This document shows, one piece after another, positions 12,753-45,484 of a stretch of 54,967 nt of DNA. The notes below the pieces were generated by a model. It was not told where the DNA came from, searched no databases, and saw only the letters and a list, made by a program, of their open reading frames with translations. Source of the DNA: Gemmatimonadota bacterium. GTDB taxonomy: Bacteria; Gemmatimonadota; Gemmatimonadetes; Longimicrobiales; Gaopeijiaceae. Positions within the stretch are counted from its first letter, which is position 1; every line of letters begins with the position of its first letter. Location: NCBI GenBank assembly GCA_021295815.1, contig JAGWBQ010000017.1, positions 1 to 54,967 on the forward strand. The letters run 5' to 3'. The position numbers were made by a program, and so were the translations under genes.

Positions 12753-13352
12753 ATGAAGCTCAATCTGCTTGCCAGCGCCTTCGTGTTGCTGGCATCGCCC
12801 GTCGCCGCCCAGGACCTGGGCCCGGCCGACGGCCAGGACCTGCCCGGAACCGACCTCGACAGGGTCGTCGCCGGCACCGAGGCCCCCGATTTCACCGCAG
12901 TCACCCTCGACGGCGACCACCTCACGCTCTCCGGATTCCGGGGAGAAAAGGACGTGGTGCTCTTCTTCTACCGCGGCCACTGGTGACCCTACTGCGCCAG
13001 GCAGCTAGGTGAGCTGCAGGATTTCCTGACCGAGGAGCAGCGCGAGACCACCGAGGTCATCGCCATCTCCGCCGACAACGCCGAAGATCTGCGGAAGATG
13101 GTGGACCGGGTCGCCGAGGAGAACGACGGCTACCGGATCGACTACACGATGGTGACCGACGCGGGCGGAGCGATCATCAAACGCTACGGGATCTACAACG
13201 AGAATACGCCGGAGGGTCGTCTTCCCTTGCCGCACCCGACCGTGTACGTCATCGACCGCGAGGGCATGGTGCGCTGGAAGTTCACCGAGGTGGACTACCG
13301 GGTCAGGCCGGAGAACGCCGACATCCTCGCCGAGCTCGAGAAGATCCGCTGA
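12753..13352 (+). CDS. Exported AhpC/TSA-type peroxiredoxin-like selenoprotein (in-frame UGA = Sec78)
   Basis: Read through the TGA at 12984-12986, one frame gives a complete 199-residue redoxin. It has a signal peptide (MKLNLLASAFVLLASPVAAQ), the thioredoxin-fold start (GTEAPDFTAVTLDG), the active site FYRGHW-U-PYCARQL, and then VIAISADN, DYTMVTDAGG, HPTVYVIDREG and a normal end at 13352. The UGA sits exactly where relatives have the first Cys of the CPYC motif, and homology is unbroken on both sides. This is the known pattern for Sec-containing peroxiredoxin-like proteins, not of a random stop. A hairpin lies 14 nt after the UGA and selD is about 1.5 kb downstream. The predicted role is periplasmic thiol/selenol peroxide reduction. 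Gene callers will split it into 12753-12986 and 13098-13352. Confidence 0.85.
12984..13017 (+). promoter_or_regulatory. Candidate bacterial SECIS element of the peroxiredoxin
   Basis: UGA at 12984-12986 is followed by GCAGCT (13001-13006), loop AGGTG (13007-13011) and AGCTGC (13012-13017): a perfect 6-bp hairpin inside the coding sequence. The loop begins AGGU, like the SelB-binding loop of E. coli fdhF. The spacing is slightly longer than in fdhF. Folding has not been computed. Confidence 0.6.
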
Positions 13353-13718: not shown

Positions 13719-14786
13719 TCACCCGCCTGCCGCCGAGACCGTCCGGCCTTCCACCAGGACCTCTTCCGCTTCCCGCCGAACGTATGCGAGCGCGACAGTC
13801 TCGCGGAAGCGGGGTGACCACGCGGACGAGGTGACGTAGCCGGCCGGCTTGCCCGTGTCGGGGAAGCTGAGCGGGGTTCCTGCGGGCGGGGGAGCCATCC
13901 CGCCCAGCCTCAGCCGTCGGAGATGACGGTTGACCCGACCTCGGTCGCGGATGCGGACTATCACCTCCTGGCCGGTGTAGCAGCCCTTGTGGTAGTCGAT
14001 GGCGCGCAGGTTGATGCCGGCTTCCACCGGGATGACGGTATCGTCCATGTCGATGCCGTAAACCGGGCTGTGCTCGGCTTCGAGCCGGAGCGTCCGCCAG
14101 AGCTCGGCCGAGCCGTCGATCATACCGGACACCGTCAGTGTCTTCTGCACGCCCGAGACGAGATCGCGACGGCCCAGGATCGTGAATGCCGGCGGCCAGA
14201 CCTCGTCGCTGCGTACGATGACGAGTCGGCTCGGGTCTCCGTCAGGCGCGGTCCATTCGCCTGCGGCGAGGCCGCCGAGCGCCTCGGCGGTCACTGCCGT
14301 CGAACCGTCGGCTCCCGCGCCCGCCGCCGACACCCCTGACACCGCTTCCGCCGCCTCGGCTCCCGTGATCGTCAGCGCGCCCATGTCGTCGGAGATGTCC
14401 GCGACCTTGGCGAACCTCGGCGGGACGTACTTCTTCAGATGGGCGATGAACGGCTCCGAACCGCTCACCGGCACGTCGAGCAGGAGGACCTCGGGATCCC
14501 TTGACACCAGCAGAGCCCGGAGATCCGTGACCATCTTGCCCTTCGGCGTGAGCACGGCGTGAAAGGTGGCCCTCCCGTGCCTGCGGTCACCCTCCGGCGC
14601 GGCACCGGTGAGAACGCCGTTGAGCATCCGCCAGGGCGCTCGTCCGGTAACACGGAGCAAGGTTCGACCGAGTTCCTCGTAACCTACGTCGGACGCGCGC
14701 AGACGTTTGAAACCGGCTGACTTTTCGGTGGCGGCGGGGTAGCCTGCCGGTGGATGTCCGTGCCGGCCCGGCTCGGCTCGATTCAA
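13719..14786 (-). CDS. ygfZ: YgfZ/GcvT-family folate-binding protein
   Basis: About 355 residues of the T-protein fold. The N-terminal section aligns with the folate-binding GcvT domain (LLRVTGRAPWRMLNGVLTG, FHAVLTPKGKMVTDLRALL). The hallmark YgfZ motif K-G-C-Y-T-G-Q-E is present (KGCYTGQEVIVRI), preceded by PVEAGINLRAIDY. YgfZ uses tetrahydrofolate to help assemble or repair certain Fe-S enzymes. The only ATG upstream (14930) would overlap the divergent selD by 86 nt and encodes unlikely sequence, so I prefer a TTG at 14786; the exact start is uncertain. It is divergent from selD with a short shared promoter region. Confidence 0.85.
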   Translation of the reverse strand: MNRAEPGRHGHPPAGYPAATEKSAGFKRLRASDVGYEELGRTLLRVTGRAPWRMLNGVLTGAAPEGDRRHGRATFHAVLTPKGKMVTDLRALLVSRDPEVLLLDVPVSGSEPFIAHLKKYVPPRFAKVADISDDMGALTITGAEAAEAVSGVSAAGAGADGSTAVTAEALGGLAAGEWTAPDGDPSRLVIVRSDEVWPPAFTILGRRDLVSGVQKTLTVSGMIDGSAELWRTLRLEAEHSPVYGIDMDDTVIPVEAGINLRAIDYHKGCYTGQEVIVRIRDRGRVNRHLRRLRLGGMAPPPAGTPLSFPDTGKPAGYVTSSAWSPRFRETVALAYVRREAEEVLVEGRTVSAAGG

Positions 14787-14844
14787 TTGCGGCGTCTCCG
14801 TTTTGATTGAGGAACGAACAGTTGGAAATCTACCCAGCGGCAAG

Positions 14845-15909
14845 ATGAAGGATACCCCCAGAGATTCCCGTCCGCGGATCAGGCTCTCCCAGCTTTCCCA
14901 CGGAGCCGGGTGAGCCTGCAAGCTCGGCATCTCCGAGCTGACGCAGGTCCTGCGTCACGTCGCTCCCGTCACGGACCCGAACGTCCTCGTGGCTCACGCC
15001 ACGGGCGACGACGCCGCCGTCTACCGTCTGGCCGCCGACCGAGCCCTGGTGGTGACCGCGGATTTCTTCACTCCCATCGTCGACGATCCCCACGACTACG
15101 GACGCATCGCTGCGGCGAACGCTCTCTCCGACGTCTACGCGATGGGAGCGAGACCGCTCTTCGCGCTCAACCTCGTGGGATTCCCGAGGGAGCTCCTGGG
15201 CGACGGCATCCTGGAGAGGATTCTGGAGGGAGGAAGCGAGGTCGCTCGCCAGGCCGGAGTTCCGATCGTCGGAGGCCACTCGATCGACGACGCCGAGCCC
15301 AAGTACGGTCTCGTGGCCGTCGGGGAGGCGCATCCCGACCGGCTGGTCACCAACACCGGGGCTCGGCCGGGCGACCGGCTCGTTCTCACCAAGCCGCTCG
15401 GATCGGGCATCGTCGCCACGGCCATAAAGAAGAACGCAGCGAGCGCCGAGGTGATCGCTTCCGCAGTCGCGACCATGAGCGCCCTGAATGCCGCCGCCGC
15501 CCAGGTCATGCGCACCCACCGAGTGAGCGCCGGCACCGACGTGACCGGTTACGGACTTCTCGGCCATCTGCGGGCGATGCTCCTGGCGTCAGGTTGTGCT
15601 GCGGAGCTGGACGCGGATGCCGTACCCGTGCTCGACGGTGTGCGAGCGCTCGTACGCGACGGCCATGTTCCCGGGGGCACCAGGCGCAATCTGGCCGATG
15701 TGGCCGCTGACGTCGATTTCGCGCCCTCGGTCGACGAAGTCACCCGGACCCTGCTGGCGGACGCTCAGACCTCGGGCGGCATCCTCATGTGCGTGCCGCC
15801 GCCGGCGCTGGAGGCCTGCCTTGCGGACCTGACCGCTGCGGGCGCGACCGCCGCGGTGATCGGCGAGCTCAAGGAGGGGCGAGCGACTATACGGGTTTCT
15901 TCTCCATGA
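14845..15909 (+). CDS. selD: Selenide, water dikinase (selenophosphate synthetase), itself a selenoprotein (UGA = Sec23)
   Basis: 354 residues when TGA 14911-14913 is read as Sec. The N-terminus reads RLSQLSHGAG-U-ACKLGISELTQ, the standard glycine-rich SelD active-site loop with Sec at the position of E. coli Cys17 and the essential lysine three residues on (K26). ATP-binding and dimer regions follow: ATGDDAAVY, TADFFTPIVDDP, GRIAAANALSDVYAMGARP, GGHSIDD, TSGGIL. It makes selenophosphate, the Se donor for Sec-tRNA, so it supplies its own synthesis and that of the nearby peroxiredoxin. I chose the ATG at 14845 because it gives a normal-length N-terminus; callers ignoring the UGA will start at a downstream codon and lose the active site. 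The 3' end overlaps the converging lon gene by 23 nt. Confidence 0.92.
14911..14948 (+). promoter_or_regulatory. Candidate bacterial SECIS element in selD
   Basis: Directly after UGA 14911-14913 an extended stem can be drawn. CCTGC (14915-14919) pairs with GCAGG (14943-14947), closed by a G-U pair. After a small internal loop, AGCTCGG (14921-14927) pairs perfectly with CCGAGCT (14933-14939) around the loop CATCT. Two stacked helices right after the Sec codon fit a bacterial SECIS; the loop lacks the classic GGU, so SelB contacts are unclear. Confidence 0.65.
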
Positions 15910-36183: not shown

Positions 36184-37392
36184 TCACCTGTCCAAACCGT
36201 ACGCCCGGACCGTCTCCACGCCGAGGGAATCCGAATGCACTCCGAGGACGAACTGTGCGCCGATCCAGGTGATCCGGAAGTCGCCAGGAGTCGCCAGAGA
36301 GCCAATGAGCCTGCCCTCGTCGTCGAAGATGTCCCACTCTGGCTCACCGGAATCCTCGACCAGGCCGCTTCGATACCGTTCCACCCACAAGTTGCCTGCT
36401 TCGTCGGAAAGGACTCTTCCGTGGACAGGGTGGGTGCTCGCGAACTCGGTCGCCCGGATTCGTTCCACGGCAGGACCCGACATTCCCCGGAGGCTCTCCT
36501 CGGCCGCAGCCCGCGATTCGTCGATCTCAGCTTGGGTCACTGCCCTCGGGACCCGGTCCACACGCACGATTCTGCGTACGGATCCCGATCGGTCATGGCC
36601 GACCAACTCGAATCGGCTCGATTGGCCATACCAGGCAAGGTTGCCGCCTGCCGCGAACTCTGCCCGCCCGCCGAAGGCCATTCCATAGCCGTTGCGGCCC
36701 AGCTGCTGGCCCGCGAACTCGCCGAGGGTCCCCAGAACCTCGCCATCACGGTCAACCGCGTACAGGAAGTGCGTGGACTGATCGCGGGTGTCCCGCGAGG
36801 GAGATTGAGTGCGGGCGTCGATGAGCAGGGTCCCGTCGTCGAGCCAGCCAATCACGTTCGGTGCAGACGCCCCCGGAAGCCGGGGAATAGGAAATGACCG
36901 AACGAACGTTCCAGAGGATGTGAAGTGGGAAACCCGCCCGCCCAGAGGATCGATCGCCACAATCGTATCGCCCGGCAATTCCGCAATCGTCCAGAGGATT
37001 GCGAATTCTCCAGGTCCTTCACCGCGTCGTCCGAACGTGCGTAGATGCCCTCCGTCATCGTCGAAAACTCGTATCTCGCCCGCCAGGCCTTCTGCCACGG
37101 CGATGTCTCCGCTCGACAGCCGTATGACCTGCATGATGCGTCCGAAGAGATCGGGTCCGTCATCCCCTCCCTCGCTTCGCCCGATCTGGAGTACGGGGGG
37201 AAGCTGAAGCCGCCATTGGTCGCCCGAGGCTTCGAGGGGACTCTCGGCGATCATAACACCGGCGCTGTCGCTAACGATGGTCGAGGAAGGGTTGTCGGGC
37301 GAGGCGCACGAAGCGAGGAGGAGTGCGGCTGCTGCGAGGCGGAGGGGACGAGGGGACGGGGGCAAAGCCGCTCCGCTGGCGACGCGCGCCAT
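36184..37392 (-). CDS. 6-bladed beta-propeller lipoprotein (array member 1)
   Basis: 402 residues. Signal with lipobox LAAAALLLASC, then SDSAGVMIAES, blade EIRVFDDDGGHLRTFGRRGEGPGEF, DEAGNLWVERY, and the C-terminal QFVLGVHSDSLGVETVRAYG. These are the shared marks of the tandem family. Expected to be anchored to a membrane outside the cytoplasm; ligand unknown. Its ATG overlaps the stop of the next upstream member by one base (TGATG), showing that the two are translated from one message. Confidence 0.83.
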   Translation of the reverse strand: MARVASGAALPPSPRPLRLAAAALLLASCASPDNPSSTIVSDSAGVMIAESPLEASGDQWRLQLPPVLQIGRSEGGDDGPDLFGRIMQVIRLSSGDIAVAEGLAGEIRVFDDDGGHLRTFGRRGEGPGEFAILWTIAELPGDTIVAIDPLGGRVSHFTSSGTFVRSFPIPRLPGASAPNVIGWLDDGTLLIDARTQSPSRDTRDQSTHFLYAVDRDGEVLGTLGEFAGQQLGRNGYGMAFGGRAEFAAGGNLAWYGQSSRFELVGHDRSGSVRRIVRVDRVPRAVTQAEIDESRAAAEESLRGMSGPAVERIRATEFASTHPVHGRVLSDEAGNLWVERYRSGLVEDSGEPEWDIFDDEGRLIGSLATPGDFRITWIGAQFVLGVHSDSLGVETVRAYGLDR

Positions 37393-38597
37393 CAGCGACC
37401 CTCGGGAGTTATCAGGTCATACAGACCGATGTAGGGAATATCCAAATTGGTTGTTCCGGTGCCCCACACGCGATCCCCATCGGCAGCCTTGAAGGTCACG
37501 CCCGGCGGTGCGCTCACCCGGAACTCCGGCGAGCCGTCCGCCCCAATGACGACCCACTCGCTCCGGTCGTTCTCGGAGGTGGCCACGCGCAGCCAGACCT
37601 GCCCTGAGCGGGTCACGAAGAAGCTCTCGATCGGGGGGTAGTGGTCGGGAATGATCGATCCCTGGATGACGGCGCCCCGCAGATTCGCGGGCACTTGCTC
37701 GCCGACGGTTTCAGGCAACGATTCGGCCGTGCGCTTGACCATGGCAACGCCCTCGTCGATGTATGCTTCGCGAACGTCGTCGGGGATCTCGCGGAGCTTG
37801 AAGTCGAGCGTGCTTTCGCCGGCTGGCCGGCCATCGAGATCGTAGCGCCGGAGGGTCAGGCGGTCCGGGACATCGATTGCCCAATCAACCACGAGGACAC
37901 CAGTTCCATCGGGCAATCGCGTGTGACGCGGCGGCGCGACCACCAGCCGGTGGGCGAAGCTGCCGACCCCTTCGATCTCCATGCTGGAGCTCTCCAGGAC
38001 GGAAGCCACGGTGTCGCGCCCGGGACCGTCGCGGGGCCCGATTGCGACGGCCATCCTGGTCCGCTCACCTCCAGCGGCTTCGCCAGGTGGTCCGACGACC
38101 AGCTGCCGTCCCCCGGCAAGGGGCATCTTTCGCGCGTATCCCGATCCCATCTCGGGGCGTCCGGTATTCGCCTCGGTCCTGACATGGATGCCGGCTGTAT
38201 CGAAGAACGACGTCCGCATCGCGAACTGGTCCTGGATCCAGAGTGTGTCCCCGGCAAAGCCCGCCCTGTATAGAGACGCGAACTCCCCGGGTCCCGTTCC
38301 ACTGCCGCCGATGTATCGTATGAAATCGCCGTCCTGGTTCAGAACCCGCACCCTCGGGTCCCGTCCGGGGACCACGAACAGTCGTCCCGCACCGTCCAGC
38401 ATAAGGCGTGGTTCGGACACGAAGGTGAGCCAGTCGGGCACCTCTACGGCGTCCCCCAGGCGGAGTAGCTCGCGCGCTTCGCGGACCGGCGCGTTCCTGA
38501 CGGTCTGGCCGTCCGCCGTGCGGGTGGCCGGCGGGGTCAGGCAAAGCGCGACCATCGCGACCGCGTGGAAGGTCGTTGCGACGATGCGAGTCTTCAT
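37392..38597 (-). CDS. 6-bladed beta-propeller protein (array member 2)
   Basis: 401 residues. Unlike its neighbours it has an ordinary signal peptide without lipobox (MKTRIVATTFHAVAMVALCL...). Blades include VRVLNQDGDFIRYIGGSGTG-PGEF, SFFDTAGIHVRTEAN and a late SFFVTRSGQVWLRVA. The DSAG motif is absent, so it is the most divergent complete member. The ATG at 38597 is preceded by GGGAG at a good distance; the frame stays open for 28 more codons upstream with no sensible sequence. It is co-translated with array member 1. Confidence 0.8.
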   Translation of the reverse strand: MKTRIVATTFHAVAMVALCLTPPATRTADGQTVRNAPVREARELLRLGDAVEVPDWLTFVSEPRLMLDGAGRLFVVPGRDPRVRVLNQDGDFIRYIGGSGTGPGEFASLYRAGFAGDTLWIQDQFAMRTSFFDTAGIHVRTEANTGRPEMGSGYARKMPLAGGRQLVVGPPGEAAGGERTRMAVAIGPRDGPGRDTVASVLESSSMEIEGVGSFAHRLVVAPPRHTRLPDGTGVLVVDWAIDVPDRLTLRRYDLDGRPAGESTLDFKLREIPDDVREAYIDEGVAMVKRTAESLPETVGEQVPANLRGAVIQGSIIPDHYPPIESFFVTRSGQVWLRVATSENDRSEWVVIGADGSPEFRVSAPPGVTFKAADGDRVWGTGTTNLDIPYIGLYDLITPEGR

Positions 38598-38809
38598 CGG
38601 TTTCTCCCTCGGTAGAGCATGTGGGGGTGCTCGCCTTCGCCAGCCCCGATCGACACGGCTGGCTCGGGTCCCACCTGCCATACCCGGGACCCTTCCGGAG
38701 GTTATGCGTTCTCAACTATCCACGGACGCGGGGCTTCATCGCGAACTCCCTCATGGCTCGTTCCTCTCGAGTTGATGGACGACCAGCCGCTCAATTCCAA
38801 GCGGGCCGG

Positions 38810-39974
38810 TCAGGACGGCCAGAACCCAATCGGATCCGAGGTCCTGGAGGACATCGTGGCGACACGGGTTCCATCGTCGTCGAAGCCCCGCCAGTGCTGC
38901 TCCGTCTGGCCGGGTGGGCGAAAGTGCCGCACCCAGATCAAGCCATCGGCGATGATGATGTCGTCGTAGGCGGGGAACCTGGTCGGCAAGGCGGGACGCT
39001 CAGTCTCCCAGTAACTATTGAACCGTTGCTCCCAATCGTCACGTCCCCCGCTTCGGTACGCCTCGTACAACTCGTCACGATAGGCGTCAAGGTGATCGTC
39101 CGTGACTTCGAGGTCGGGGCTGTCCCACCGAATCCGGTCGATCGTGGTTCCTGTCCAGTCAACCAGTTCGATCTCGTGACTGTCGGCCGTTCCGATCCAG
39201 GCGCCTTCGTCGGTCGCGGCAATGGACAGGGTGCGTCCCCACGTCAGCGGCCACGCACTGGACGGCACGCCACGCACGAAATACAGCATCCGGTCGGCCC
39301 CGGGAATCCCCTGGCGAAATACTCGGGGACTCGCCCCCTCACCGTCGTGGTAGACGATATCCGCAACCCATCGGTAGGGACCCTCACGGTCCGGCATCTG
39401 ACTTTGGTCTGCGTATGGAGCCGCGTCGGGGAGCACACTTGATCAGGCGGTAGGGTGTCCGGTCACCGAAATTAAAAAGGTAGTCGTCCACCAGCTCTCC
39501 ATCGTTGTCCAGGATGGTCACCCGGTATTGGGAACGGTCGTAGATGACGATCCGGTTGTCCCTTGAGCAGGTGGTCAACAATACGGGAAACTTGAACTCT
39601 CCGGGGCCTTCACCGTGACGCCCCCTACTCCACAGGTGGGCGCCGTCCGGTCCGAATCCGCGTACCTCGTAGTGGCCTCGGACCATCACCACGACACCGC
39701 CGTCGGGAAGACGCATCGCTCCGTCCACCTGGAACAGTTCGTAAGGCGAATCCACCCCTTGGCCGGGGCCGATGGAGAGGACGGGTTCGACGCTCGCACG
39801 CAATGCGCGCACCGGTGTCTCCTGTCCCCCGGCCAGGGCGACCGGTAGGCCTGTAGCTACGAGTCCCCCCAAGAAGACAGCGGCCACGAGCCGGGTCGGT
39901 TTGGAGCGACGGGGGCGGCCGGTGAGGAACGGCGCTGCCGCCCCAGCCGGGAACCTCAGCGTCGAGATCGTCAA
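38810..39974 (-). pseudogene. 6-bladed beta-propeller protein, interrupted by one frameshift (array member 3)
   Basis: The N-terminal half reads from a TTG at 39974 (GGAAG 7 nt upstream): signal-like RLVAAVFLGGLVATG, blades, GRHGEGPGEFKFPVLL, then RTPYRLIKCAP and loss of homology. The C-terminal half (stop at 38810) continues in another frame with PDAAPYADQS and aligns along its length with the propeller at 1-846 (QGIPG, WGRTLSIAA, SPDLEVTDDHL, RFPAYDD). The shift falls at a CCCC run on the coding strand (39428-39431); one C fewer restores one frame. So it is either a recent pseudogene or a homopolymer error. No lipobox. Confidence 0.7.
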
Positions 39975-40125
39975 TGTGCCACTTCCTTTGATTGTGATTG
40001 GAAATGGTGCACCCGGGACACGGATTTCCCCGGCATCCCAGTGTTCCGCCAATCGGTGGAAAGCTCTAGCACGGGATTCAGGCCCGTTCTACCACTGCAA
40101 CCGGCCGAGACGCCAAAGCGTGCGA

Positions 40126-41336
40126 TCATCGCCGCTCCAACGGCCACACCTGCACCGACTCCACACCAAGTTCCTCGCTCACCGCCCTGCCCAGAATGTA
40201 GTCCCTCCCGATCTCGTAGATCTCCAACTGTTCTGGTGTTTCGACGAACCCCAGCACCCGCCCGCCTGGATCGAAGACGGTCCAGATTATGCCCGGGCGC
40301 TCTTCTCCGGGGGCTTCGTATTCCTCGACCCAGAGGTGGTTTATGGCATCGGACATGATGGAAGAAAAGGCCGGGAGGTACTCGGCTACCGGCACGGACT
40401 CGAGGAGTTGCATGAATAACTCCGTCTGAGAGTCGCTCGCGATCCGGGATACGTAGTCATCCACGTACGCACCGAGGTGAGCTGTCGTGGGCGTGCGCCG
40501 TTCAAGGTCAAGCCGGACGATCCGCGCCAGCCTGCCGCTCGTCGAAAACGCCTTCATCTCGTAGCGGTCGGTCCCGCCGATGACGACGAGTTCGCCCCAG
40601 GAGCCCAATTCAAGGGTCCGGCCGAAGGTTTTCGGGAAGTTCATTCTGGTGAATGATTGCATGAGGTGTCGCTCCGAACCCGGGTGCGTTCCCAGGGAAT
40701 TCCGAAGCTCTCCGTCCCCATCCCAGAGTTCAACCACGACGGGATCGACGGAGATCGGGTCCTGGCTCGCCAGAATCGTGCCGTCGCGCAGGACAGTCGC
40801 CGGGCCCAGGTCATAGCGATCGTGGAGACTTCTCGCCAGGGGGATGGTCCGGACGAAGTTCCCTTGCGAATCGAACACGCTCATGCGCTTCGCCGGCCAT
40901 TCCCAGGCGACGATCGAGTCACCCGGGAAGATCTCGACGCGAACAAGATTGCGAAACTCTCCCGGCCCTTCGCCCCTTCCGCCCCAGGTCGTCAGGTGAG
41001 TTCGCAGAGCGTCGCACACCCGCAGCTCCATGGTGCCGGCGTTCACCACGACGCTCCGCCCGTCCGGCAATTTCGCCGCATCCCGTCCGCCGAAGAGCAG
41101 GTAGGGGTCATCGCCCGCCCGCGCACGCCGATAGAGATCGCCGGCTCCGGTCCGATCCGCCAGTCGAGCCGCGAGTCGTCCCGAGGGCGGGAGTTTTCGG
41201 CGATCTGGATGCCGGCGCTGTCCCGCAGTTGGTACTGGGGCTCCGGGGCTGCGAAATCGTCGGGGTTGTCGACGCAGGCAGCAAGGGTGAACAGGATCGT
41301 CGCCGGCAGGAGGGGTGGGCGGATTGGGGATTTCAT
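40126..41336 (-). pseudogene. 6-bladed beta-propeller lipoprotein, interrupted by one frameshift (array member 4)
   Basis: Starts at ATG 41336 with a strong AAGGAGG ribosome site (41347-41353). Lipobox LFTLAAC, then RDSAGIQIAEN and EPAISIG, after which this frame loses homology and stops at 41043. The family sequence continues in another frame (AGDDPYLLFGGRDAAKLPDG, WGGRGEGPGEFRNL, INHLWVEEY, DYILGRAVSEELGVESVQVW) to the stop at 40126. The switch lies within a GC-rich run (about 41113-41128). One inserted base would restore the gene. A decayed copy or sequence error; the rest of the coding sequence is intact. Confidence 0.72.
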
Positions 41337-41436
41337 GGTCGGCTGTCCTCCTTCAGTGAGGATTCCGGCGTGTATGTGTGTAAGCTACAATTTACAGAAA
41401 GCGATCTACACATAACGGGCCTGATGGCTTCGGGAT

Positions 41437-41610
41437 TCATTTCAGCTTGGATGACCCGACCCGATAGAGCTCCTCGAAGTCGGGGGTCAGGGGGCTGTCT
41501 TCCCCGAGGAGGGTGATGATCTCCTGGGGGGACCGTCCCGCCGGAAACCGGGTCAGAGTGGTTGAGCCGTTCGCCGGATTCGGTTTTCGAACCTTCGCCC
41601 TGCGCCCGGC
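41437..41610 (-). other. Protein-like open tail after the stop of array member 5, no start found
   Basis: Directly after the TAG of the gene at 41611, the same frame stays open for 57 codons and reads like real protein (TRFPAGRSPQEIITLLGED, TPDFEELYRVGSSKLK) before a TGA. There is no plausible start codon or ribosome site. I do not recognise it. It may be the 3' remnant of another gene or a former C-terminal extension. Confidence 0.25.
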
Positions 41611-42924
41611 CTACTTCTCCAGCCCGTACATCCGCACGTATTCCACCCCCTGCTCCCCGCTCCACACACCCAGAACGTAATCCTCGCCGATTTCCATGCC
41701 GGTGTTTTCCCTTCCCACGGCCAGAATTAGCCCCGGTGGCATGGCGACGGACCCCAGCCAGGTGCCGTCCGGTGCGTAGACCTCGAAGGGGGACCTTTCG
41801 GAACCGTAGACGGCAAACGGCTCCACCCAGAGGTTTCCGGCTGCGTCCAGACGGATCGACCCGAGGACCGGGAGGGTGGGAGCCATCGGTGCCTTGCGCC
41901 AGACCGGCTTGCTCGCTTCCGCTTGCTCTTCCGAATAGCCACCGTAGGCGACGTTCCGCCTGGCCATCCATTCGACGTAGGCCTCCACATCCTCGGACGT
42001 CACCTCCCGGGCCGGCTCATCCCGGCGCAGGATCGCCTTGGTGGCACCGTCGTCGAGGGAAACCGAACGCACAGAGAACACCTCGGTATCGACCAGGGCG
42101 AGCCGCCCGCCCGCCGTCGCCAGTTGGGGTCCCCTTCCGAACTCGTACCCGCGATAGCTGATGCTCGACTCCATCCGAGTGATGTATTGCTCGGCTCCGG
42201 GAATGTCCATCAACGTGGCCACAGCCCCGTCGTCGAGGGAAAAAGTGGTGATCCGGATGCCCGGCCACCGCACGACTCCGATTGGAATCTCCCCCTCCAG
42301 GTCCTGGAAGATCAGGACGAGACGGCGCTCCGACACGCCGACGACCCTGGTCGGCGGGGATCCTGACCAGGGAGATTCGATGCGCATGGTCCGGGCAACA
42401 ACGCCTTCGGGCCCGAATATCTGCACGCGGCCCAGAGCACCGTCGTAGGTGACCACGGAATCGCCTGGCAACAACCCCACGAAGGTAAGGAAAGCGTGTT
42501 CTCCGGGACCCTCTCCCTGGCCCCCCGTTCGCCACATGAACGTGCCGTTTCGGTCGTATCGGCGCAGTTCGCCACTCGCCCACTCACCGAGAACGATGTC
42601 GCCGTTGCTCAGGCGGACGGCCCCCATCACCCCGTCGAGCAGGTACTCGTCTGATCCGTCTACGGCGCCGATTTCGAGCAGGGGTTCCTCGCTGATCGTC
42701 CAGCCTTCACCGGATCCCCACTGGGGAGCCAGTGCGGTGGTGATGGGGATTCCGGCGGAATCGGTCCTGATCGTGGTCCTGGACTCCGAGGGCGAATCGC
42801 AGGTGCCCAGTGCGAGAGTCGCGACGCAAAGCAGGACCATGCCGGGCGCTGCGAGCCGCCGCCTGATCGATTCAATCCGGCTGTTGCGTTGACCTCTCTT
42901 GACGATCCATCGCTCGACAACCAT
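41611..42924 (-). CDS. 6-bladed beta-propeller lipoprotein (array member 5)
   Basis: 437 residues as called, with lipobox LCVATLALGTC at ~33-43, RTDSAGIPITTA, ELRRYDRNGTFMWRTGGQGE with GPGEH, a long acidic/Arg-rich insertion before IRLDAAGNLWVEPF, and the terminal DYVLGVWSGEQGVEYVRMYG. The segment before the hydrophobic core is long (~28 residues, many Arg), so the true start may be the ATG of MVLLCVATLALG or another codon nearby. Exported, ligand unknown. Confidence 0.82.
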   Translation of the reverse strand: MVVERWIVKRGQRNSRIESIRRRLAAPGMVLLCVATLALGTCDSPSESRTTIRTDSAGIPITTALAPQWGSGEGWTISEEPLLEIGAVDGSDEYLLDGVMGAVRLSNGDIVLGEWASGELRRYDRNGTFMWRTGGQGEGPGEHAFLTFVGLLPGDSVVTYDGALGRVQIFGPEGVVARTMRIESPWSGSPPTRVVGVSERRLVLIFQDLEGEIPIGVVRWPGIRITTFSLDDGAVATLMDIPGAEQYITRMESSISYRGYEFGRGPQLATAGGRLALVDTEVFSVRSVSLDDGATKAILRRDEPAREVTSEDVEAYVEWMARRNVAYGGYSEEQAEASKPVWRKAPMAPTLPVLGSIRLDAAGNLWVEPFAVYGSERSPFEVYAPDGTWLGSVAMPPGLILAVGRENTGMEIGEDYVLGVWSGEQGVEYVRMYGLEK

Positions 42925-42976
42925 AGGTCTGAGGCGGAAGTAGGGATGGATGGCCGGGGCTTCGATCCCCGCCCTC

Positions 42977-44131
42977 TCAATTCACCGCTCGAAACCGCAC
43001 CCGCGCCACCCGCTGCACACCGAGCGAGTCGGCAGTAACCCCGTACAGGGCGGAGTCGAATACCCGGGGCGTCGGAAAGTCTCGAACCCGGCTCGGCCAC
43101 CGATACACTGCCACCAGCGTCGTTCCCTCGTAGACGTCGGCCTCGCGCATCGCCGCTCCGTCCGCCGCCGTCTTCTCGATCCACAACCGGCCTGCGGCGT
43201 CAAAGAACATGCGTGCCAGCGGAGCCTTGCGGTCGGGAATCCCGAACGGGTGCTCGTCGAGTCCGGCGCGGTCCCGCTCGCGTTCCATCTGGCGTTCTGC
43301 CGCAGCCAGCTCGTCCGCGCTCGGTGCCGGTCCCCGGAGCGCGGGACCCTCGATCACGGAAACGGTGCCGTCCGGACCATGGTAGTTGATCGCATACTCC
43401 GTGCTCACCGCCTCCGCCCATGTGCCCCCGTTCGCGTGGGCGCGAACCCACCGCGGTCCGAAAGGCGCATGGACGTAGACAATGCCCCGCATGTTCCCCA
43501 TTTCGAACGGCACCGTCTTCTGGCCGGCTTTCTGCCGCTCCGAATCCGCCATGACCACGGTGTCCACGACCCCGTCGTGACGCAGTCGCAGTCGCGCCTC
43601 CAGGCTCACGTCATCGTCGCCTCGCACGGGTCCGACGGCGACCAGCTGGCCCTCCGCGTCGAAGGTGAACGGATCGTTGAGACCGACATGTCCGGGGTTC
43701 AGACTTCCGAGCACCCTCCGGTACTCCGCCTTCTCCGACTCCAGCCTGAACACGCTGTACCGAACACTCTCGCGCACCCATAGTTCGCCGTCCGGACCGA
43801 ACTGCAGACTACTGGGGTCCGACAGCTCGCCGGGACCCTCCCCCGGGCCACCGAAGTGGAACGCGAAATCCCCGTCGGGCTCGAAGACCCGGATCTCGCT
43901 CGTATGCCTGTCGGTGACGATCACCCGTCCCCCCTCGTCGGCCACGATGTCCCCGATCGAGGAGAACAGGTAGGGATCCTCCCCGTCGAGTTTGCCGATC
44001 TCGAGCTCGATGGTGCCCTCGTAGGTTGGGACTTCCTCCAGGACAACTTCCGAATCCTCCTCCACCGAGCAGGCGGCCGGGATCAGGAAGAACGCCGCCG
44101 CAACGGTCGGTCGAGATGGAACCCGCTTCAT
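42977..44131 (-). CDS. 6-bladed beta-propeller lipoprotein (array member 6)
   Basis: 384 residues. Signal and lipobox AAAFFLIPAAC, then blades EIRVFEPDGDFAFHFGGPGE with GPGEL, SLQFGPDGELWVRES, ARMFFDAAGRLWIEK, and the end DSALYGVTADSLGVQRVARV. The DSAG motif is missing; an acidic EEDSEVVLEEVPTYEG linker replaces it. AAGGAG 8 nt before ATG 44131 supports the start. It lies 52 nt upstream of array member 5 on the same strand. Confidence 0.83.
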   Translation of the reverse strand: MKRVPSRPTVAAAFFLIPAACSVEEDSEVVLEEVPTYEGTIELEIGKLDGEDPYLFSSIGDIVADEGGRVIVTDRHTSEIRVFEPDGDFAFHFGGPGEGPGELSDPSSLQFGPDGELWVRESVRYSVFRLESEKAEYRRVLGSLNPGHVGLNDPFTFDAEGQLVAVGPVRGDDDVSLEARLRLRHDGVVDTVVMADSERQKAGQKTVPFEMGNMRGIVYVHAPFGPRWVRAHANGGTWAEAVSTEYAINYHGPDGTVSVIEGPALRGPAPSADELAAAERQMERERDRAGLDEHPFGIPDRKAPLARMFFDAAGRLWIEKTAADGAAMREADVYEGTTLVAVYRWPSRVRDFPTPRVFDSALYGVTADSLGVQRVARVRFRAVN

Positions 44132-44233
44132 GTCAATACTCCTTCACTGAATTTACCCGGTTGCACATAAGCCACATCCGTTCGGCGTACGCCCGGTGCC
44201 GGAAAATGTTCATCCAAGGAAGGCGAAACACTG

Positions 44234-45484
44234 TTACCCCGTCCAACGCACGTCATGGATCGCTACCGTGCTGCGATCCATTTCGTCACGCACAATCGTC
44301 AGCACTGACTGTCCGCTCACCTGCACCGGCCAGACGTTGGAGGGCAGTCGCAAATGGCCGATGAAGACGCCCTCGGCGTCGAAAACGTCCCAGACTTGAT
44401 CGTCTTCCGGGACGCCCACCGTCACCCCTTCGGCATCACCAGGCCGCAGGAGCCACACGCCGCCTCTATCCGTGAACAACACGGCATCCCAGGGCCGTCG
44501 TCGTGCTTCGGGAATCGGCATGTCGGACAAGTGTCTTTCGTAGAAGCGCACCTGGGATTCGGGAAAGCCGACGCCTCGCAAGAACTCAACGAACTTGGAC
44601 GCGGAGAAGTCGTCGATCTGGCGAGGCGCTCGATCGATCTCGACCCTGCGCTCGAGACCCGCCGGGCCGTACACCGAATACGACGCCTCCCCGGCGGCAT
44701 CGGTCACGTAGACCCGGTCGTCCCGGAGCCCCCAAAGTGAACCGCCGGCGTAAGGTGCTGGAAGGACCCCGGTGTACGGCACGACGACCTGCACTCCATC
44801 CCGGAAGTACCACAGTGCGCCCGGGGCCTCCCACACCAAAGTAGGGGCCGCACCGTCCAACGGCATCGTCCAGATTCTGACGGTATCCCTGAAGGTCGAG
44901 CCGTTTGCCGGTAGGCGCTCCATTACCTGCGGAATCTGGCCAAGAAGGGTCCCAGCTCGGGTCACATGAAGTGGCCGCGGCGAGATGCCGAGGGACGACG
45001 GCATCAGTTTGCTGTGCAGGAACTCACCGTTCTCGGAAAAAACCGATAGTCGCCGGTGCTCAGAGTCATACGCGTAGGCACTTCCTTCTCCATCGAACCC
45101 GAGGAACGCGCTCCGCCGGAACTCACCGGGGCCGTCGCCTCTCCCACCGATCGTGAACAGATGCGCACCGGAGCCGGGGTCGAATACGCGAATCTCCTGG
45201 GCCTGCGAATCCGTGATCCACAGCGATCCATTCCGATGCAATCGAGCGGTGCCGACTCTACCGAAGAGATCCGGGCCTTCTTCCTCGGAACCGAAGACGC
45301 GCCCGGCGGGCTGAACGAGTTCCCCGCGAGGCCGCAGCTCATCCGTGTTCCGGACGATCTCGACCCCCGCACTGTCCGCGCGGCCCGGACCGATTGCCTC
45401 GCCCCGGTCGGAAACGCCGCACGCTGCCGAGAGCAAGACGACGGCAACGTGAGATCCCCGAAGGGCACAATGTATACCGGACAT
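44234..45484 (-). CDS. 6-bladed beta-propeller lipoprotein (array member 7)
   Basis: 416 residues. Lipobox VVLLSAAC, then RADSAGVEIVRN, LWITDSQAQEIRVFDPGSGA, GGRGDGPGEFRRSAFLGF, DRRVYVTDAAGEASYSVYGP and VWDVFDAEGVFIGHLRLP. It is the first gene of the array in transcription order. There is no obvious ribosome site before ATG 45484, so the message may be leaderless or start elsewhere. Exported; function unknown. Confidence 0.82.
   Translation of the reverse strand: MSGIHCALRGSHVAVVLLSAACGVSDRGEAIGPGRADSAGVEIVRNTDELRPRGELVQPAGRVFGSEEEGPDLFGRVGTARLHRNGSLWITDSQAQEIRVFDPGSGAHLFTIGGRGDGPGEFRRSAFLGFDGEGSAYAYDSEHRRLSVFSENGEFLHSKLMPSSLGISPRPLHVTRAGTLLGQIPQVMERLPANGSTFRDTVRIWTMPLDGAAPTLVWEAPGALWYFRDGVQVVVPYTGVLPAPYAGGSLWGLRDDRVYVTDAAGEASYSVYGPAGLERRVEIDRAPRQIDDFSASKFVEFLRGVGFPESQVRFYERHLSDMPIPEARRRPWDAVLFTDRGGVWLLRPGDAEGVTVGVPEDDQVWDVFDAEGVFIGHLRLPSNVWPVQVSGQSVLTIVRDEMDRSTVAIHDVRWTG

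Follow-up and report, generated by a model that had tools for sequence, protein, structure and literature searches.

The window analyzed here, a stretch of 54,967 nucleotides from a Gemmatimonadota genome, contains a seemingly broken redoxin gene that, judged by its sequence and its homologs, is very probably an intact gene for an exported selenocysteine redox protein. We put the probability that it encodes a selenoprotein with UxxC redox chemistry at roughly 0.88, a figure that covers both parts jointly and excludes the choice of role. The frame is open from the ATG at 12753 to the stop codon at 13350–13352, and its sole interruption is a UGA (12984–12986) within FFYRGHW-U-PYC. Read through this codon, the product consists of a signal peptide followed by an AhpC/TSA domain, and the Pfam AhpC-TSA match (PF00578; residues 41–175, E = 6.9e-30) spans the UGA unbroken. 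A first-pass annotation had proposed an exported, peroxiredoxin-like selenoprotein with an in-frame UGA and a signal peptide upstream, and these elements stand: the frame and the PF00578 homology are continuous across the codon and the signal peptide is present (see the table). All 74 assessable homologs begin with a hydrophobic N terminus (signal peptide, lipobox or anchor), a count that is an upper bound because start codons were picked to favor such an N terminus. We infer that the redoxin is exported to the envelope.

Features of the redoxin locus and the neighboring selD gene (positions in the window)
Feature	Position	Strand	Basis or remark
Predicted Prx-like (AhpC/TSA-type) exported selenoprotein gene, 199 residues via one UGA	12753..13352	+	Frame, Pfam, homologs
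Predicted signal peptide, MKLNLLASAFVLLASPVAAQ	12753..12812	+	N-terminal sequence; homologs have a signal peptide, lipobox or N-terminal membrane anchor
UGA codon, predicted Sec78, first residue of the U-P-Y-C redox motif	12984..12986	+	Frame and homologs
U-P-Y-C motif	12984..12995	+	Cys81 lies over the peroxidatic Cys of peroxiredoxins, Sec78 over their Thr/Ser
SECIS-like hairpin, GCAGCU-AGGUG-AGCUGC	13001..13017	+	Begins 14 bases after the UGA; comparative
Pro162 codon (HPTVYVID)	13236..13238	+	Aligns with the peroxiredoxin catalytic Arg; thioredoxin cis-Pro position
YgfZ/GcvT-like gene between redoxin and selD	13719..14930	-	Order kept in close relatives
selD (selenophosphate synthetase), itself a predicted selenoprotein gene	14845..15909	+	Profile match, own UGA
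In-frame UGA (Sec) of selD, SHGAG-U-ACKLG	14911..14913	+	Sequence

Conservation of the UGA carries much of this reading. Since close homologs occur in 50 of a first set of 146 genomes (the window's own genome and relatives), each with exactly one TGA, and since the UGA falls at the identical aligned codon in 37 of 37 UGA loci examined, its position lies far beyond chance. With the own genome excluded, the close homologs are 45–67% identical; one further genome of the 146 has only a distant match, without a stop. Among 395 genomes drawn from the phylum, a homolog is found in 85, with the UGA in 82 and no stop in three. The three stop-free homologs carry TGC at the UGA codon; in their genomes selB is absent and the hairpin has decayed. 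Homologs of both the UGA and the Cys type also occur among 396 genomes from the phylum of a Bryobacterales homolog (L022), and the family is common to many Gemmatimonadota and some Acidobacteriota. Mapping the UGA and Cys states on a tree of 72 homologs requires five or more switches from one to the other. Flanked by homologous sequence on either side, the in-frame UGA is therefore either conserved or replaced by Cys, as expected of a selenoprotein gene.

Several individual homologs have features of their own. Loci L058–L066 (family code f4) nest inside the window's family (f1) in the homolog tree, a placement that suggests horizontal transfer. A second, diverged copy in genome G305 reads U-P-F-S and has lost the second Cys of the motif, and the halves of one Bryobacterales UGA homolog (L026:4001-4494) lie in different frames, reflecting a frameshift or an assembly error.

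Is the machinery for selenocysteine insertion available? The source genome (2.47 Mb, 96% complete) contains the full set expected of a genome with a selenoprotein gene: SelA (E = 7.8e-122), SelB (309 bits, above cut-off), a tRNA-Sec whose anticodon is UCA (70.6 bits, and also found by ARAGORN) and SelD (389 bits). The search for selA, selB and selC advised by the first-pass annotation, for which their absence would have been damaging, thus found all of them. The presence of the redoxin also follows that of the machinery across genomes. Of the 50 genomes that carry the UGA gene, 48 have SelA, versus 51 of the 96 that lack the gene (Fisher p = 2e-8), and SelB exceeds its cut-off in eight of eight tested genomes with UGA homologs and in none of four with Cys homologs. 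Two genomes with the UGA gene and no SelA (G037 and G083) are incomplete assemblies; because SelB is above cut-off in both, the missing SelA genes are likely to be assembly gaps.

The selD gene lies 1.5 kb downstream, as had been noticed from the sequence; overlooked at that stage was its own UGA, which is also carried by the neighboring selD genes of close relatives. ORF callers would put the start of selD at 14989. The order redoxin, YgfZ, selD is kept in the nearest relatives, but this is a neighborhood and no proof of shared function, and comparison of gene neighborhoods revealed no substrate-hinting neighbor common to more distant relatives. Elsewhere in the window, the minus strand at 36184–45484 encodes a row of similar-looking exported proteins, four of them with at least weak matches to DUF5128 (6-bladed beta-propeller).

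The hairpin that follows the UGA, described in the first reading with an AGGU loop, is indeed present, with a stem of six base pairs (13001–13006 with 13012–13017) and the loop AGGUG. Because the folding energy of the region alone is not significant (z = -0.73), the case for a SECIS element is made by comparison; a search of Rfam with a permissive E-value gave no match at the locus. Across 29 distinct sequences, 98% of stem cells are paired, versus 28–53% when the partner is slid by 1–3 columns. The pair at columns 18 and 34 occurs as G-C, U-A and A-U, and the pair at columns 21 and 31 as G-C and A-U, a two-sided change that in L022 comes about through synonymous codon changes. The full six-pair stem is found in 52 of 59 UGA homologs versus a mean of 7.7 and a maximum of 15 in synonymous-codon shuffles, and it is kept in none of 10 Cys homologs. 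In one of the latter (L105), the stem is lost though the peptide QLGEL is unchanged. With its position shortly 3′ of the UGA and a G in the apical loop, the hairpin fits a bacterial SECIS as far as comparative analysis can tell. Four UGA homologs (L121, L127, L132 and L136) are without a six-pair stem in this register; another strong hairpin folds in them, possibly a SECIS in a shifted register.

These observations bear on two readings in which the UGA would not encode selenocysteine. The TGA could be a nonsense change, or a sequencing error, in an ordinary CPYC redoxin, and a Cys (TGC) form does exist in related genomes. However, the UGA is kept at its codon across two phyla, is linked to SelB and is followed by a hairpin that covaries and decays in Cys homologs, so that a pseudogene or an error is effectively refuted. 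Alternatively, the UGA could be decoded as tryptophan or through general suppression. Apart from the open frame, we found nothing in favor of such decoding, and we reject it: the gene's own stop codon is UGA, tRNA-Sec(UCA), SelA and SelB are all present, and the homologs examined substitute Cys, never Trp. Either reading would now come as a great surprise.

What kind of redox protein is encoded? The first-pass annotation was right to expect a peroxiredoxin-like fold. The structures closest to the AlphaFold model (pLDDT 88.4) are AhpE (Z 21.4, with an rmsd of 1.7 across 152 residues), Bcp and 2-Cys peroxiredoxins, and Pfam AhpC-TSA is matched by 28 of 28 members of our alignment. The first-pass annotation had also placed Sec at the peroxidatic position, and here the alignments point elsewhere. 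Alignment with the solved structure 2cx3, a peroxiredoxin, places W-U-P-Y-C over F-S-P-V-C, and in alignments to solved peroxiredoxins generally the Sec falls on the Ser/Thr position of TxxC and Cys81 on the peroxidatic Cys. The Thr/Ser of a peroxiredoxin TxxC or TxxU motif is therefore replaced by Sec, with Cys kept at the peroxidatic position. Similarly, the Arg of KRAVF in 2cx3 is matched by Pro162, so that the catalytic Arg is not found there; the cis-Pro position of the thioredoxin fold is Arg in peroxiredoxins (fold survey, PMC2757866). All 28 aligned members have Sec or Cys at position 78 together with Cys81 and Pro162, although the equivalent of Pro162 is sometimes lost in more distant Acidobacteriota homologs and is not universal in the wider family. 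Since the nearest structures are AhpE and its kin, yet the site combines UxxC with Pro, the protein is predicted by sequence and model to have the fold of a peroxiredoxin and an active site of the thioredoxin type.

This arrangement has precedents. A 2005 study of the Sargasso Sea (PMC1088965) described Prx-like selenoproteins in which UXXC replaces TXXU, and 225 sequences of "Prx-like 1, pfam00578, UxxC" were counted in GOS (PMC2398784), so that the description of the Sec as unusual was too strong; a 2026 review lists a "Prx-like thiol:disulfide oxidoreductase" as predicted with high confidence (PMC13188914). Judged by domain and motif, the redoxin fits this known kind, whose published members include WP_010940744.1. 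It shares with them PF00578, distant homology to peroxiredoxins, UxxC instead of TxxU and the existence of Cys homologs, whereas this branch is apparently exported and is seen in Gemmatimonadota and Acidobacteriota.

This protein scores below the cut-off of every NCBIfam model. Sec-peroxiredoxins of the PrxU type (TxxU; NF040737) have the same fold and Pfam domain, but their Sec is peroxidatic and here it stands three residues earlier (42 bits versus a cut-off of 270). SelL-related redox proteins (NF040769) likewise have a peroxiredoxin-like redox domain, and the score is 39 bits versus a cut-off of 120. ResA/TlpA-type thiol-disulfide oxidoreductases resemble the redoxin in their CxxC-type motif, in a Pro before the last strands and in export; however, the redoxin fold is nearer to peroxiredoxins, and the ResA model NF002854 gives 48.9 bits versus a cut-off of 170.

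If UGA is decoded as the sequence predicts, selenocysteine would be inserted at residue 78 by SelB and Sec-tRNA(UCA), with the hairpin 14 bases past the codon as their guide. Sec78 may then attack a disulfide or another oxidized substrate, Cys81 would resolve the intermediate via a Sec-Cys bond, and electrons supplied in the envelope, for instance by a DsbD/CcdA-type membrane protein, could reduce this bond. Two DsbD_TM proteins are encoded in the genome and could feed electrons to the envelope. We consider a dithiol-type oxidoreductase of the envelope, working through a Sec-Cys bond, to be the most likely role, and hold this with modest confidence.

As the main rival reading, the same selenoprotein might instead act mostly as an envelope peroxidase, in which hydroperoxides react with Sec78 or Cys81 and a thioredoxin-like donor recycles the Sec-Cys bond. 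Because its nearest structural relatives overall are true peroxiredoxins, as the AhpE and Pfam matches above attest, such activity retains some plausibility, and selenols are good peroxide nucleophiles. However, two defining residues of the peroxiredoxin site, the Thr and the catalytic Arg, are replaced by Sec and Pro, and we regard a mainly peroxidatic role as less likely. A more speculative idea, to which we give little credence, is that the hybrid site (a peroxiredoxin fold in which Sec and Pro replace the Thr and the Arg, respectively, and Cys stays at the peroxidatic position) marks a distinct family of envelope selenoenzymes whose reaction is foreign to thioredoxins and peroxiredoxins alike. 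If so, this might be, for example, the reduction of a specific envelope oxidant or of an oxidized protein thiol.

We found no paper on this redoxin in the open-access literature searched. The locus illustrates predicted selenocysteine use in genomes of Gemmatimonadota and Acidobacteriota, where ordinary gene callers are expected to split such genes. Since codon, SECIS and selB are lost together, the homologs form a natural series for the exchange of Sec for Cys, and they add another example to the question of why Sec is required in an exported redoxin.
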